From Bordetella parapertussis (GTDB lineage Bacteria; Pseudomonadota; Gammaproteobacteria; Burkholderiales; SG8-39): a DNA stretch of 64,000 nucleotides. The notes beneath the pieces were generated by a model. It made no database searches and was not told where the DNA came from. It saw only the letters and a list, made by a program, of their open reading frames with translations. The stretch spans positions 1 through 64,000 of the forward strand of contig CAMAXP010000001.1 of assembly GCA_945862265.1 (NCBI GenBank), written 5' to 3'. Positions 58,716 through 64,000 of the stretch are shown piece after piece. The first letter of the stretch is position 1; each line of letters opens with the position of its first letter. A program made the translations under genes and the position numbers.

Positions 58716-59021
58716 ATGGGCTGGCATACGGTGGCGGAAGCCGACGCGATCGGCGACGACGAGGCGCTCGGCGTCAAGGTGGGCGAGGTGCCCATCGCAA
58801 TCGTGCGCGCGGGTGGCGCGCTCCACGCGGTGCACGACATCTGCACCCACCAGTATGCGCACCTGTCCGACGGCTACGTCGAGGACGGCTGCATCGAGTG
58901 CCCCCTGCACCAGGGCAAGTTCAACCTCCTCACGGGCGCAGCCGAGAGTGCGCCGTGCACCGAGCCGATCAAGGTCTACCCGCTGAAGGTCGAGGGCGGC
59001 AAGGTCCTGGTCGAGCTCTAG
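58716..59021 (+). CDS. Rieske [2Fe-2S] ferredoxin component of a dioxygenase
   Basis: A 101-aa Rieske ferredoxin carrying electrons from the reductase to the oxygenase. Cluster ligands are Cys-His in DICTHQYAHLS and Cys-His in IECPLHQGKFN. ATG at 58716 has GGGAGG upstream; residues before it in frame are not coding-like. First gene of the operon 58716-64000. Confidence 0.93.
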   Translation: MGWHTVAEADAIGDDEALGVKVGEVPIAIVRAGGALHAVHDICTHQYAHLSDGYVEDGCIECPLHQGKFNLLTGAAESAPCTEPIKVYPLKVEGGKVLVEL

Positions 59022-59039
59022 GCGCCGAGTTCCATCCCC

Positions 59040-60287
59040 GTGTCCGACTCCGAACGCATCCTCATCATCGGCGCAGGCCAGGCCGGCGGCCGCGCGGCCG
59101 AGGCGCTGCGCGGCGCGGGGTACGCCGGCCCGGTCACGCTGGTCGGCGATGAGCACGAACCCCCGTACGAGCGCCCGGCGCTCTCCAAGGGCGTGCTCCT
59201 CGGGGACGATGCGCCGGAATCCACCTTCATCCACGCCAGGGAAGCCTGGGGCGCGAAGGGTGTCGATCTCGTCACCGGCGTGCGTGCCGAGGCCATCGCG
59301 CCGGGCAGTCGCAGCGTGCTGTTCTCGGACGGGCGCCGCCTCGGCTACCGCCACCTGATCCTCGCCACCGGCAGCCGTGTGCGCCCGCTCATCGGGGTGG
59401 ACGATACGCTCGGCGGCGTCCACTACCTGCGCACGATTGCCGATGCCAAGCGCCTCGCCAGGGAGTTGGTGCCCGGCCGGCGCATGGTGGTGATCGGCGG
59501 CGGCTTCATCGGCCTCGAGGTCGCCTCGACGGCGGCCAAGCGGGGCCTCAGGGTGACAGTCGTCGAGCGGCAGCCTGCACTGCTGGAGCGGGCGCTACAC
59601 ACGGATATTGCGGCGGCAGTCGAGCAAATGCACCGCGTGCGCGGCGTGGATGTCCGCCTCGGCGCCGCAGTCGCGGGGCTGCACGGCACGGGACGCGTGT
59701 CCTCCGTGGGCCTCGCCGACGGGACGGAGCTTCCGGCCGACGTCGTGGTGATCGGGATAGGCATCATCCCCAACACGGAGTTGGCCGAGGCCGCCGGCGC
59801 GCAGTCGGCCGATGGCGTGGTGACCGACGAATTCGGCCGCACCAGCGTGGAAGGCCTGTGGGCCGCCGGGGACGTCACCAGCCACTACAACCCGGTGCTG
59901 GGACGGCGGCTCCGGCTCGAGTCCTGGCAGAACGCCCAGAACCAGGCGATTGCGGTCGCGAAGAACACGATAGGGGCCCCGGTGGCCTACGCGGAGGTGC
60001 CGTGGTTCTGGTCCGACCAGCACGGCGTCAATATCCAGGTGGCGGGCATGGCCGAACCGGGCGCACGCACCGTCTGGCGCGGCGATCCCGCGACGGGCAA
60101 GGCGGTGGCCTTCTCGCTCCTCGGGGAGCGTATTGTCTGTGCAACGGCTTTCAATGCGGGCGGCGAGATCCGGTTTGCTCGCAAGCTCATCGAATCGAGG
60201 CGGCCGGTGCAGGCCGCAGCGTTGGCCGATGCCGGCACGAAACTCAAGGACCTCGCCGCGCCAGCGCAAGTCGGCGCGGCGGCTTAA
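59040..60287 (+). CDS. NAD(P)H-ferredoxin reductase component (FAD, BphA4-type)
   Basis: A 415-aa flavoprotein. FAD motif IIGAGQAGGRAAEALRGAGY, the EPPYERPALSKG signature of ferredoxin reductases, NAD motif VIGGGFIGLEVASTAAKRG and the second FAD motif GLWAAGDVTSHYN. GTG start. Passes electrons from NADH to the Rieske ferredoxin 18 bases upstream. C-terminus KLKDLAAPAQVG is slightly extended. Confidence 0.93.
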   Translation: MSDSERILIIGAGQAGGRAAEALRGAGYAGPVTLVGDEHEPPYERPALSKGVLLGDDAPESTFIHAREAWGAKGVDLVTGVRAEAIAPGSRSVLFSDGRRLGYRHLILATGSRVRPLIGVDDTLGGVHYLRTIADAKRLARELVPGRRMVVIGGGFIGLEVASTAAKRGLRVTVVERQPALLERALHTDIAAAVEQMHRVRGVDVRLGAAVAGLHGTGRVSSVGLADGTELPADVVVIGIGIIPNTELAEAAGAQSADGVVTDEFGRTSVEGLWAAGDVTSHYNPVLGRRLRLESWQNAQNQAIAVAKNTIGAPVAYAEVPWFWSDQHGVNIQVAGMAEPGARTVWRGDPATGKAVAFSLLGERIVCATAFNAGGEIRFARKLIESRRPVQAAALADAGTKLKDLAAPAQVGAAA

Positions 60288-60313
60288 GGCTTAGACGGGA
60301 CACAGGAGCGACC

Positions 60314-61615
60314 ATGTTCAGCGCAAACACAGTCATCGGCCAGACGGGCGACTTCGCCAAGGAACAGCGGCACAAGGAAGGGTTCGAGTTCAAGTGGCCG
60401 GCCGAAGGCCTGACCACGATCCCCGACTGGATCTACACCAGCCCGGAGATCTACGAGCGCGAGATCGAGCGCATCTTCCACGGCCGCACGTGGAATTTCG
60501 TGGCGCTCGAGGCCGAAATCCCCAACCCGGGCGATTACAAGCGTTCCTTCGTCGGCCCGACGCCTGTGGTGGTGGCGCGCAATACAGACGGCACCGTGCA
60601 CGTCTTTGAAAACCGCTGCGCGCACCGCGGCGTGGAATTCTGCCGCCAGCATCTGGGCAACGCGAAGGAAATGGTCTGCCCGTACCACAACTGGTCGTAC
60701 GACCTCACCGGCGACCTTCAGGGGATCCCCTTCAAGCGCGGCGTGAAGGGCGAGGGTGGCGGCATGCCGAAGGACTTCCGCAACGCGGACCACAACCTGC
60801 GAAAGCTCAAGGTGACCACGCTGCACGGGGTGGTGTTCGCATCCTTCTCCACCGACGTGGAGCCGATCGAGGAGTACCTTGCCCCGGAGATCCTCAAGGA
60901 TTTCGAGGTGGTATTCAAGGGCAGGAAGCTGAAGATCCTCGGCTACTGCCGCAACGAGCTGCCCGGCAACTGGAAGCTCTACCACGAGAACCTCAAGGAC
61001 CCGTACCACGCCACGCTGCTGCACTCCTTCCTCGTGACGTTCGGCCTGATGGTCGCCGGCAGCAAGAACGGCATGATCGCCGACCCCAAGGGCCGGCACG
61101 GGACGCTCGCCTCCGCCAAGCCCGACAACGTGGCGACCGCGCTGGACGACGCGGTGAAAAAGGAGATGCGCGCCTACCGCGAGGACTTCAAGCTCGCCGA
61201 CGGCCGGTTTCTCGATTACGTGCGCGAGTTCGATTCGCCCTGGTCGGTCACGATGCAGACGATCTGGCCGAACTTGATCGTCCAGCGTGAGCTGAACACG
61301 CTCGGCATCCGCCACATCATCCCGAACGGCCCGCACAGCCAGATCATGATGTGGACGATGTTTGGTTTTGATTCCGACAGCGAGGAAATGACACGCCACC
61401 GCCTGCGCCAGGGCAACTTGATGGGGCCTTCGGGGTTCCTGGGTGTGGAAGACAACGAGGCGATCAAGTTCCTGCAGGAGGGCGTGCGCCGCTCGCCGTC
61501 GGACAAGGGTGTGCTCAAGCTCGGCGGCGACACCACGGGCAGTTCCAGTTCCGTGATCAACGAAGCCGGGATCCGTGGCATGTACAAATACTACAGAGAG
61601 GAGATGGGACTGTGA
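60314..61615 (+). CDS. Aromatic ring-hydroxylating dioxygenase, alpha subunit
   Basis: Catalytic large subunit of a three-component Rieske dioxygenase, 433 aa. Rieske centre C-x-H...C-x2-H in RCAHRGVEFCRQH and VCPYHNWSYD. Mononuclear iron motif LKDPYHATLLH (D-x2-H-x4-H). It resembles the anthranilate/benzoate-type (AndA, BenA) branch, but the substrate is not determined. Beta subunit is at the window edge, separated by two unrelated genes. Confidence 0.92.
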   Translation: MFSANTVIGQTGDFAKEQRHKEGFEFKWPAEGLTTIPDWIYTSPEIYEREIERIFHGRTWNFVALEAEIPNPGDYKRSFVGPTPVVVARNTDGTVHVFENRCAHRGVEFCRQHLGNAKEMVCPYHNWSYDLTGDLQGIPFKRGVKGEGGGMPKDFRNADHNLRKLKVTTLHGVVFASFSTDVEPIEEYLAPEILKDFEVVFKGRKLKILGYCRNELPGNWKLYHENLKDPYHATLLHSFLVTFGLMVAGSKNGMIADPKGRHGTLASAKPDNVATALDDAVKKEMRAYREDFKLADGRFLDYVREFDSPWSVTMQTIWPNLIVQRELNTLGIRHIIPNGPHSQIMMWTMFGFDSDSEEMTRHRLRQGNLMGPSGFLGVEDNEAIKFLQEGVRRSPSDKGVLKLGGDTTGSSSSVINEAGIRGMYKYYREEMGL

Positions 61616-62691
61616 GCAGCGCAAAAAGGCTGGCCGTCAGTGTAGGAAGCGTTGCCCTGAAGAACCCGGTGATCGCCGGGGCCGGCGAGGCCACCATGAC
61701 CGAGGAGGGCATTCGTGCCGCATTGAACGCTGGCGTCGGGATGGTTTTGGCCAAGTCCACCAATGAGGCGCCGGGCGCAAAGGCCCAGCTGGACCATACC
61801 GACTACATGTTGCTCGACTCGCGCTGGCGCCCGGTGGAGTGGACATCGACGCCGCCGGAGGATGCCCAGCTGTTCTGCCGCTCGGGACTCGTGCAGGAGG
61901 ATTTCGAGACTTGGCTCGGCAAGCTCGCCAAACTGGACGCCGAGGCCAAGGCAATGGGCAGCTATGTTGCCGGCCACCTGATCCTGAACGACCTGGCGCA
62001 GTGTGTGCGGATGGCCGAGCGCATGCAGGAGGCAGGGTTGCGGGTAATCACGGTCCTCTGCGCCGCGGTGCATGGCGAGCAGGCGGCCAAGGGCAACATT
62101 GCCACGGTGCGCGACCCGGCTGGCACCACAGAAGTGGTGAAGGCGCTGCGTGCCAAGGTCAAAGTCCCGCTCTGGATCAAACTCCCCGGCACCCACGAGG
62201 ACGTCTCGCTGCTGGCCAAGGCCGCGATGGATGGGGGCGCCGATGCAGTGAACTTCATCGACCGTACGCTGGCCATGGTTCCGGACCTGAAGACCCGTGC
62301 GCCCTTCCTTGGCACGATTGCCGCGATCGGCGGATCGTGGTCGCTGGCCGTGACGTGCCGCTGGCTGGCGCAGACCCGCAAGCGGCTTGGGCCCACATGC
62401 CCGATCATCGGCACCAACGGCGCGCGCGACGGTTACGACGTGGCGCGCATGATGCTGGCGGGGGCCAGCGCAGTCGAGATGACTTCCGCGGTGATGCTGG
62501 GCGGGGTGCGCGTGCTGAGCCGCGCCATCGAGGAACTCGACGGGTACCTTGTCGAACAAGGGGTCACGGCGACCAGCCTCATTGGCGAGGCTGCTGACAA
62601 ACTCACCGCCTACACGGACCAGCCTGCCCGGCCGGGGCGCTGGAAGCAGTTTGTGCATCCGGAGGCGCTGCCAGCGTCGGACAAGCCATGA
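61612..62691 (+). CDS. FMN-dependent dihydroorotate/dihydropyrimidine dehydrogenase-like protein
   Basis: A 359-aa TIM-barrel flavoprotein of the DHOD/PreA type. VGSVALKNPVIAGAGEATMT opens the barrel, followed by the phosphate and FMN-site segments IIGTNGARDGYDVARMMLAGASAVEM and VLSRAIEELDGYL. GTG start overlaps the alpha subunit stop (GTGA). It lacks the extra Fe-S domain of full PreA. In the operon it could act on the ring-hydroxylated product; this is inference. Function otherwise unknown. Confidence 0.75.
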   Translation: MSSAKRLAVSVGSVALKNPVIAGAGEATMTEEGIRAALNAGVGMVLAKSTNEAPGAKAQLDHTDYMLLDSRWRPVEWTSTPPEDAQLFCRSGLVQEDFETWLGKLAKLDAEAKAMGSYVAGHLILNDLAQCVRMAERMQEAGLRVITVLCAAVHGEQAAKGNIATVRDPAGTTEVVKALRAKVKVPLWIKLPGTHEDVSLLAKAAMDGGADAVNFIDRTLAMVPDLKTRAPFLGTIAAIGGSWSLAVTCRWLAQTRKRLGPTCPIIGTNGARDGYDVARMMLAGASAVEMTSAVMLGGVRVLSRAIEELDGYLVEQGVTATSLIGEAADKLTAYTDQPARPGRWKQFVHPEALPASDKP

Positions 62692-63659
62692 AGTCCCTGC
62701 GAATCGCCACCCTGGCCGGGCTGGTCTGCGTGGTCTCAGCGCCTGCGGCGCTTGCTCAGGGTTACCCCAACAAGCCGGTGCGCGTGCTGGTCCCGTTTGC
62801 TGCGGGAGGTGCGGTGGACATCCTGGGCCGTACCATGGCCCAGGCGTTGTCTGAATCGCTGGGCCAGTCCTTCGTGGTGGAAAATCGACCTGGCGTTGGC
62901 GGACTCATCACGCTGGAGGCGGTGGCGGCGGCGGCGCCGGACGGATATACGATCGCGGTGGCTTCGGCAGGGCCGATGTCGGTCAGCCCTTCATTGTTCG
63001 CGGCCCGAGCCTTCGATCCTATCAGGCAGTTGGAGTCCGTCATTCTTTTCGCCAATACACCTGGCGTGATCGTCGGCCGTCCGGACCTGCCCGCGGTGAA
63101 TGTGAGCGAACTCGTGGCGCTCTCGAAAACCAAGGCAGGTGGACTTACTATGGGATCCGCGGGCAGCGGAAGCGTCCTCCACCTCATGGGGGAGTATTTC
63201 CAGAACAGGCAGGGGATCAAGTGGACCCACGTCCCCTACAAAGGCAGCAACCCGGCGCTCCTCGATCTGGCTGCCTCAAGGGTGGATGTCATGGTCGATG
63301 TTGTGCCGACTGCGGCTCCCTATGTCAAGACCGGCAAGCTCAAGGGGTATGCAACCACGACACAGAAGCGCGCCAGCCAGCTGCCAGACCTTGCCACGCT
63401 CGAAGAGCAGGGTTTCCGGGGCTACGACATGGGTTCATGGATGGGAATCGTGGTGCCCAAGGGGACGAGCGCCGAGATCGTAGGAAAGTTAAACAGTGTG
63501 CTCAATGCAGCCCTCAGAACCCCGGAGATGCAGTCGCGGCTCGTGACCATGGGTGCGGAGCCCGAAGGCGGCGCGCCTTCGCACTTTGCACAGAGGCTCG
63601 CAACCGATCTTCCCCGCTGGGCGGAAGTCATCCGCAGTTCAGGCACCAAAGTGGAGTGA
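62688..63659 (+). CDS. Bug/TctC-family tripartite tricarboxylate transporter substrate-binding protein
   Basis: A 323-aa periplasmic binding protein. Signal peptide ends ALA-QG. Bug hallmarks are YPNKPVRVLVPFAAGGAVD, VENRPGVGG, ADGYT-like PDGYTIAV, and HVPYKGSNPALLDL. Bug proteins in Burkholderiales usually lack dedicated TctAB and bind carboxylates or aromatic acids. Its place between dioxygenase subunits suggests uptake or sensing of the substrate. Overlaps the DHOD-like gene by 4 bases. Confidence 0.9.
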   Translation: MKSLRIATLAGLVCVVSAPAALAQGYPNKPVRVLVPFAAGGAVDILGRTMAQALSESLGQSFVVENRPGVGGLITLEAVAAAAPDGYTIAVASAGPMSVSPSLFAARAFDPIRQLESVILFANTPGVIVGRPDLPAVNVSELVALSKTKAGGLTMGSAGSGSVLHLMGEYFQNRQGIKWTHVPYKGSNPALLDLAASRVDVMVDVVPTAAPYVKTGKLKGYATTTQKRASQLPDLATLEEQGFRGYDMGSWMGIVVPKGTSAEIVGKLNSVLNAALRTPEMQSRLVTMGAEPEGGAPSHFAQRLATDLPRWAEVIRSSGTKVE

Positions 63660-63661
63660 CC

Positions 63662-64000
63662 ATGTACGCTGGATACGATATGAAAGCCCCGGATCCCCGG
63701 TCCGTGCGCGAACTGCGCTTCGAGATCGAGGAATTCCATACCGAATACTGCAACGTGCTCGACCGCCTCGCCCTCGAGGAGTGGGTGGAGTTCTTCGCCG
63801 ATGACGCGCTGTACCGCATCACCGGGCGCGAAAATGCCGACGCCGGGTTGTTGGTGGGCCTCGTCTACGCCGAAGGCCGCGGCATGATCCGCGACCGGGC
63901 ATTCGCCGTCATGAACACGCAGATGTTCGCGCCGCGCTACATGCAGCATTTCACCAGCAACGTGAGGGTGGTTGCCGTGGAGGGCACCGGCGAGGGGCAA
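63662..64000 (+). CDS. Aromatic ring-hydroxylating dioxygenase, beta subunit (5' part)
   Basis: Small NTF2-fold subunit of the dioxygenase, cut at the window end after about 113 codons. EFHTEYCNVLDRLALEEWVEFFADDALYRIT is the family opening. ATG at 63662; MKAPD a few codons later is an alternative. It completes the oxygenase with the alpha subunit at 60314, two genes upstream. Confidence 0.88.
   Translation, partial: MYAGYDMKAPDPRSVRELRFEIEEFHTEYCNVLDRLALEEWVEFFADDALYRITGRENADAGLLVGLVYAEGRGMIRDRAFAVMNTQMFAPRYMQHFTSNVRVVAVEGTGEGQ

Follow-up and report, generated by a model that had tools for sequence, protein, structure and literature searches.

The 64,000-nucleotide (nt) stretch that we analysed, hereafter the window (G000:C1:1-64000), is the beginning of contig C1 (CAMAXP010000001.1) in a draft genome assigned to Bordetella parapertussis (GCA_945862265.1; 105 contigs, 4.6 Mb). 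It closes with an operon of six genes on the forward strand, which encode, in order, a Rieske ferredoxin, an FAD-dependent ferredoxin reductase, a Rieske oxygenase alpha subunit, a flavoprotein similar to dihydroorotate dehydrogenase (DHOD), a periplasmic binding protein of the Bug/TctC family and the oxygenase beta subunit. The parts are ordinary; their arrangement, in which the DHOD-like and Bug genes split alpha from beta, is unusual, recent and precise. We consider it reasonably probable that the operon encodes a PicB-type hydroxylase acting on a pyridine-carboxylate-like acid, and that an uptake receptor and a ring-redox flavoenzyme were added to it.

Insertion of two genes between the oxygenase subunits

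The clearest evidence comes from a genome of the same genus (G346), where the cluster is collinear gene by gene at 76-97% protein identity (ferredoxin 76%, reductase 80%, alpha 90%, beta 80%, MarR regulator 94%, short-chain dehydrogenase/reductase (SDR) 82%, 2-oxoglutarate (2OG)-oxygenase-like protein 84%, TRAP receptor 97%, DUF1989 protein 90%, molybdenum-hydroxylase large subunit 93%, ABM-like protein 93% and MaiA 89%), and where alpha and beta are adjacent. In blastn comparisons, the homology extends up to the alpha stop codon (61615, equivalent to L009:4616) and returns at TGACCATG before beta (63657, L009:6658), the spacer between the two genes measuring 2041 nt in the window versus 29 nt in G346. 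A search of the genomes of the family returned no DHOD-like match in G346 and a match in seven of 98 genomes, counting the window's own and one fragment.

That alpha and beta genes usually adjoin, as stated in the initial annotation, agrees with the other loci: beta lies no more than 138 nt from alpha, on the same strand, in 28 of 30 (gaps between the ends of BLAST hits). These 30 loci were retrieved by similarity searches and are no random sample, some being near copies and three belonging to the genome's own other oxygenases. The two exceptions are L113, located at a contig end, and L070 from Achromobacter xylosoxidans A8 pA81, where the beta gene behind a NagG-like alpha is apparently cut by an IS5 transposase gene (L070:6230-8000). 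Because the G346 cluster is the same with adjacent subunits and adjacency is found in 28 of the 30 loci, the simplest reading of the sequence comparisons is that the split is a recent, lineage-specific insertion of the DHOD-Bug pair, gained in the window lineage. The alternative of a conserved, old separated order is ruled out by these two observations together with the alpha and Bug trees discussed below.

Gene calls, domain matches and the common strand confirmed the gene order and the overlapping start codons that had been claimed from the letters alone. Alpha and the DHOD-like gene overlap by GTGA (61612-61615), and the DHOD-like and Bug genes by ATGA (62688-62691). Beta begins either at ATG 63662, 2 nt past the Bug stop, or alternatively at GTG 63656, which gives a further GTGA overlap (63656-63659). 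The ferredoxin and reductase genes are separated by 18 nt, and those of the reductase and alpha by 26 nt. As C1 comprises 178187 bases, the operon end could be read past 64000, and beta is complete. The six-gene layout is no chance effect, and the inserted genes are real members of the operon, as had been proposed: both are intact and coupled to their neighbours, both show dN/dS values of 0.13-0.25 against relatives (with dS near saturation), and their homologues are found paired elsewhere. The features are collected in Table 1.

Table 1. Genes of the split oxygenase operon and the inserted segment, in C1 coordinates.
Feature	Coordinates	Strand	Evidence
Rieske ferredoxin (PicB component type)	58716-59021	+	PF00355 77 bits; AndAb model 132.7 bits; Rieske motif CxH..CxxH
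FAD ferredoxin reductase (Pyr_redox_2 + Reductase_C)	59040-60287	+	PF07992 226 bits, PF14759 92 bits; AndAa model 393 bits
Oxygenase alpha, probably PicB-type	60314-61615	+	PF00355, PF00848; PDB 7c8z (NagG) 448 bits; Rieske motif, DPYHATLLH; sister clade of pic-cluster alphas
DHOD-like flavoprotein, putatively FMN-type (inserted)	61612-62691	+	PF01180 62 bits; no counterpart at the same site in G346
Bug/TctC periplasmic binding protein (inserted, paired with DHOD-like)	62688-63659	+	PF03401 233 bits; DHOD-linked Bug clade, support 100/100
Oxygenase beta	63662-64183 (window part to 64000)	+	Ring_hydroxyl_B/SnoaL_4; AndAd model 124 bits; 80% to G346 beta
2041-nt segment, alpha stop to TGACCATG before beta	61616-63656	+	29 nt in G346 (blastn)

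Class of the oxygenase and its genomic context

The alpha phylogeny suggests that the oxygenase is of the PicB type, in a clade sister to the alphas of pic clusters. According to PMC10142695, which describes these clusters in Alcaligenes faecalis JQ135 and Bordetella bronchiseptica RB50, PicA is the picolinate dehydrogenase and PicB, encoded by picB1B2B3B4, the 6-hydroxypicolinate monooxygenase, within a set of roles running from PicA to PicG. The four genes of such an oxygenase system (ferredoxin, reductase, alpha and beta) are all found in the window. In our tree, the window alpha falls within a clade of eight sequences from its own GTDB family; this clade is sister to a group of 11 alphas, and NagG branches in a separate clade. 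Loci with alphas 61-69% identical to that of the window are pic-type clusters by gene content, containing the ferredoxin, reductase, alpha and beta genes, a three-subunit molybdenum hydroxylase, an amidohydrolase (PicC), a 2,5-dihydroxypyridine dioxygenase (PicD), a hydrolase (PicE), an isochorismatase-family amidase (PicF), a MarR regulator and, in some, a maleate isomerase (PicG). The "pic" label in the alpha tree was set on eight rows, and the PicC counts were taken from a separate survey of loci: on the stretches examined and at the same threshold, a PicC-like gene was found in 12 of 12 sister-group loci (the 11 plus the Paracoccus row) versus none of the eight in the window clade. This zero must be read together with G380, where a PicC-like gene (38%) lies on the neighbouring stretch L106, some 9 kb upstream of the ferredoxin gene and outside the count. 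A PicA-type large subunit is present on the locus read in seven of the eight members of the window clade, L061 being the exception.

Two other known oxygenases resemble this system without accommodating it. The best NCBIfam models for the four components are those of the anthranilate dioxygenase AndA (NF041682-NF041685), which has the same component types, but all four score under the equivalog cut-offs (132.7/150, 393/650, 403/750 and 124/230 bits) and the window differs by its DHOD-Bug insertion. Salicylate 5-hydroxylase, NagGH, is likewise an alpha-beta hydroxylase and provides the best solved relative of alpha (7c8z), but the window alpha lies outside the NagG clade. In the NagGH locus L068, moreover, an annotated ferredoxin-NAD(P)+ reductase, NagAa, which we take to be of the 2Fe-2S type, stands beside adjacent nagG and nagH, whereas the window has a Pyr_redox_2 FAD reductase instead. 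The DPYHATLLH segment of the window alpha is presumably typical of the iron site.

Beyond the window, C1 was read to 92000 with a simple gene caller and Pfam searches on selected genes. A PicR-like MarR gene (64193-64717; 41%) and a PicA-type molybdenum hydroxylase (70517-74867; large subunit 62%, medium 49%, small 53%) resemble those of a Variovorax pic-type cluster. The cluster thus shares with pic the oxygenase system, the PicA-type enzyme, the MarR regulator and an alpha in the sister clade, and differs from it by the DHOD-Bug pair inside alpha-beta and by SDR, 2OG-oxygenase-like, TRAP, DUF1989, ABM-like and MaiA genes in place of picC to picG. No classical ring-cleavage gene, of the kind that the initial annotation proposed to look for past 64000, was found in the next 28 kb by these calls. 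The clusters of relatives contain, in addition, an amidase gene, a gentisate-dioxygenase-like gene or a nitrile hydratase alpha gene; in G380 the last of these is found close to the sister oxygenase cluster, as is a thiamine-diphosphate enzyme (L105:1180-4052). Elsewhere in the window's genome, a nicotinate-type cluster on C3 (G000:C3:78000-97999, L066) includes molybdenum hydroxylase genes, FAD monooxygenase-like genes and PicE-, PicD- (41%) and PicF-like genes.

The DHOD-like flavoprotein and its Bug partner

The flavoprotein had been called PreA-like, a likeness that does not stand out in the model scores: it reaches 60.2 bits with the PreA model (cut-off 335) and 102 bits with the best model, pyrD_sub1 (cut-off 270), and it stays under the cut-offs of all PyrD and PreA models. 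The true PyrD of the genome is encoded on C35 (398 bits, cut-off 366). With PyrD, PreA and DPD the protein shares the DHO_dh domain, and Lys48, Lys190, Gly240-Gly241, Asn269-Gly270 and Gly284-Ala285 are invariant in 20 members of its family; the later of these residues fit the FMN site by their position in the alignment to DHOD B, and we assume that they play the same FMN-site roles. The NISCPN loop of DHOD, whose Cys is the usual catalytic base, is changed in the window protein, which has Leu149 for the first Asn, Ala152 for the Cys and His154 for the last Asn. Therefore, the model scores, the catalytic loop and the presence of the true PyrD on C35 rule out a PyrD or PreA/DPD identity. The structure predicted from a 4-row alignment (mean pLDDT 51.8) was too poor for a fold search.

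Among the four nearest full-length relatives of the DHOD-like protein with known gene context (68-75% identity), three adjoin PicA-type or pic genes, at differing positions: next to a PicA-type large subunit and a PicF-like gene (L018), next to a PicA-type three-gene set (L019), and as a DHOD-Bug pair within a pic-type cluster, 7 kb from adjacent alpha and beta (L020). The DHOD-like sequence of L036, at the end of a contig, is fragmentary. In L018 (6534-10068), the PicA-type large subunit has no medium or small subunit alongside and is directly followed by the DHOD-like gene. A further recurrent operon of beta- and alphaproteobacteria (L123-L126, L041-L044) combines a cupin, an HpcH-type aldolase, DUF6282 and a DHOD-like gene with Bug or TRAP transport. 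In the literature searched, which left most subscription papers outside its reach, we found no paper on DUF6282, none whose title or abstract describes a pic or ring-hydroxylating operon that includes a DHOD-like gene, and no account of the catabolic route, in line with the suggestion that the latter is not yet described.

The DHOD-like and Bug genes appear, from their phylogenies and linkage, to be a co-inherited pair. In the 21 other DHOD-like loci, a Bug at least 53% identical to that of the window occurs within 3.1 kb in eight, and any Bug within 160 nt in seven. A phylogeny of 29 Bugs places that of the window together with seven DHOD-linked sequences in a single clade (support 100/100) and four further DHOD-linked Bugs in a second one; the DHOD tree has the same main split. 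The genome encodes at least 150 Bug/TctC-like genes. The eight best-scoring of at least 149 own paralogs branch outside the DHOD-linked clade, and the nearest own paralog is 45% identical versus 53-64% for the DHOD-linked Bugs of that clade's type, which makes a local duplication unlikely. The GC content at third codon positions (GC3) is 0.740 in Bug and 0.830 in the DHOD-like gene (window mean 0.851, standard deviation 0.048, n=52), the low value of Bug being in line with import.

The Bug protein matches PF03401 far above the cut-off of 27 bits, and its hydrophobic N-terminus ending in ALAQ was judged by eye to be a signal peptide. It belongs to the same TctC/Bug family as Bug27 and Bug69 of Bordetella, which bind the pyridine dicarboxylate quinolinate according to PMC11452294; the likeness is one of family, and a similar ligand for the window protein would follow by analogy. 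Three other Rieske alpha-beta pairs of this genome (C16, C36; L011, L012), whose alphas are 39-42% identical to that of the window, are each accompanied by nearby Bug genes, so the pairing of receptor and oxygenase is seemingly a theme in this genome.

Proposed function and competing explanations

Electrons would pass from NADH through the FAD reductase and the Rieske ferredoxin to the alpha-beta oxygenase. The proposed reaction of this enzyme is hydroxylation of an acid resembling a pyridine carboxylate; its most likely substrate is the pyridone that the PicA-type molybdenum hydroxylase, whose genes lie 9 kb downstream, would make, and control would be exerted by the PicR-like MarR regulator. 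The DHOD-Bug pair entered the operon precisely between the stop codon of alpha and the start region of beta, with translational coupling kept. In the periplasm the acid would be bound by Bug; the DHOD-like protein, with FMN, would oxidise or reduce either the ring or the product of the oxygenase. A PicB-type oxygenase with a downstream PicA-type enzyme fits the N-heterocyclic substrate suggested initially.

Several observations weigh against this assignment. The pic clusters were recognised by gene content, and the window alpha, itself in a sister clade, was compared with their alphas and with no characterised PicB sequence (JQ135, RB50). None of picC, picD, picE, picF and picG was found on the stretch of C1 read, and the best PicC match in the whole genome reaches 31%, so a full picolinate pathway is unsupported; because picC to picG are missing from that stretch, the pathway would be a sister of pic that may differ in its lower part. 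The DHOD-like protein has Ala at the usual catalytic Cys position, and DHOD-type chemistry may not be its reaction. Its relative in L031 (71%) has no pic-type gene on a 7.7-kb contig, and, at the thresholds used, neither a PicA-type nor a PicB-type match was found in 16 of the 21 other DHOD-like loci (41-56%). Finally, since G346 lacks the pair, the pair is not needed for the oxygenase.

This last point, together with the fact that most other DHOD-like loci belong to operons that lack a Rieske oxygenase (e.g., Bug-cupin-aldolase-DUF6282-IclR-DHOD or TRAP-DHOD-DUF6282-aldolase-cupin), would also suit a passenger insertion, in which the pair comes from another route and borrows the expression of the operon with no role alongside the oxygenase. 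We regard this as possible but the less likely course, as the placement runs exactly from stop to start with coupled starts, and the association with PicA-type or pic genes recurs in three of the four nearest relatives at different positions. A carbocyclic substrate is rather improbable: here, a salicylate- or anthranilate-type hydroxylase related to NagG or AndAc would feed a gentisate-like cleavage, and MaiA would serve as maleylpyruvate isomerase. The best PDB match, the MaiA model score (248 bits, cut-off 171) and the gentisate-dioxygenase-like gene in the sister cluster of G180 (395 bits, cut-off 442) would be suited to such an acid, and the last two count against a pyridine substrate; however, the alpha tree sets NagG apart and groups the window with pic alphas, the molybdenum hydroxylase in seven of the eight clade members is of a type expected for N-heterocycles, and the reductase is unlike the annotated NagAa. 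A mis-assembly that placed the pair between the two subunit genes is very improbable, even considering a draft of 105 contigs and the low GC3 of Bug: the junctions coincide exactly with the stop of alpha and the start region of beta, the start codons overlap, and the homology with G346 reaches both edges.

Returning to the pyridine-acid hydroxylase operon, we put forward, as a tentative extension that we doubt more than we favour, that the DHOD-like proteins form a so far overlooked family of FMN enzymes for ring redox in pyridine-carboxylate catabolism, which travels between operons with its own Bug as a two-gene module and was here built into the oxygenase operon. The pyridone form of 6-hydroxypicolinate is a deaza analogue of orotate, its carboxylate lying beside the ring NH and its ring carbonyl on the opposite side; a DHOD fold with other acid-base residues could therefore either reduce this compound or, starting from its dihydro form, catalyse the dehydrogenation.

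The operon points to a sister pathway of picolinate breakdown and to a conserved flavoprotein family that keeps residues aligned to the FMN site, does without the usual catalytic residue and recurs beside pyridine-acid hydroxylases with its own receptor. The same cluster, with and without the two-gene module in one genus, offers a clean before-and-after view of operon extension, the module being placed exactly between subunits that must assemble together.

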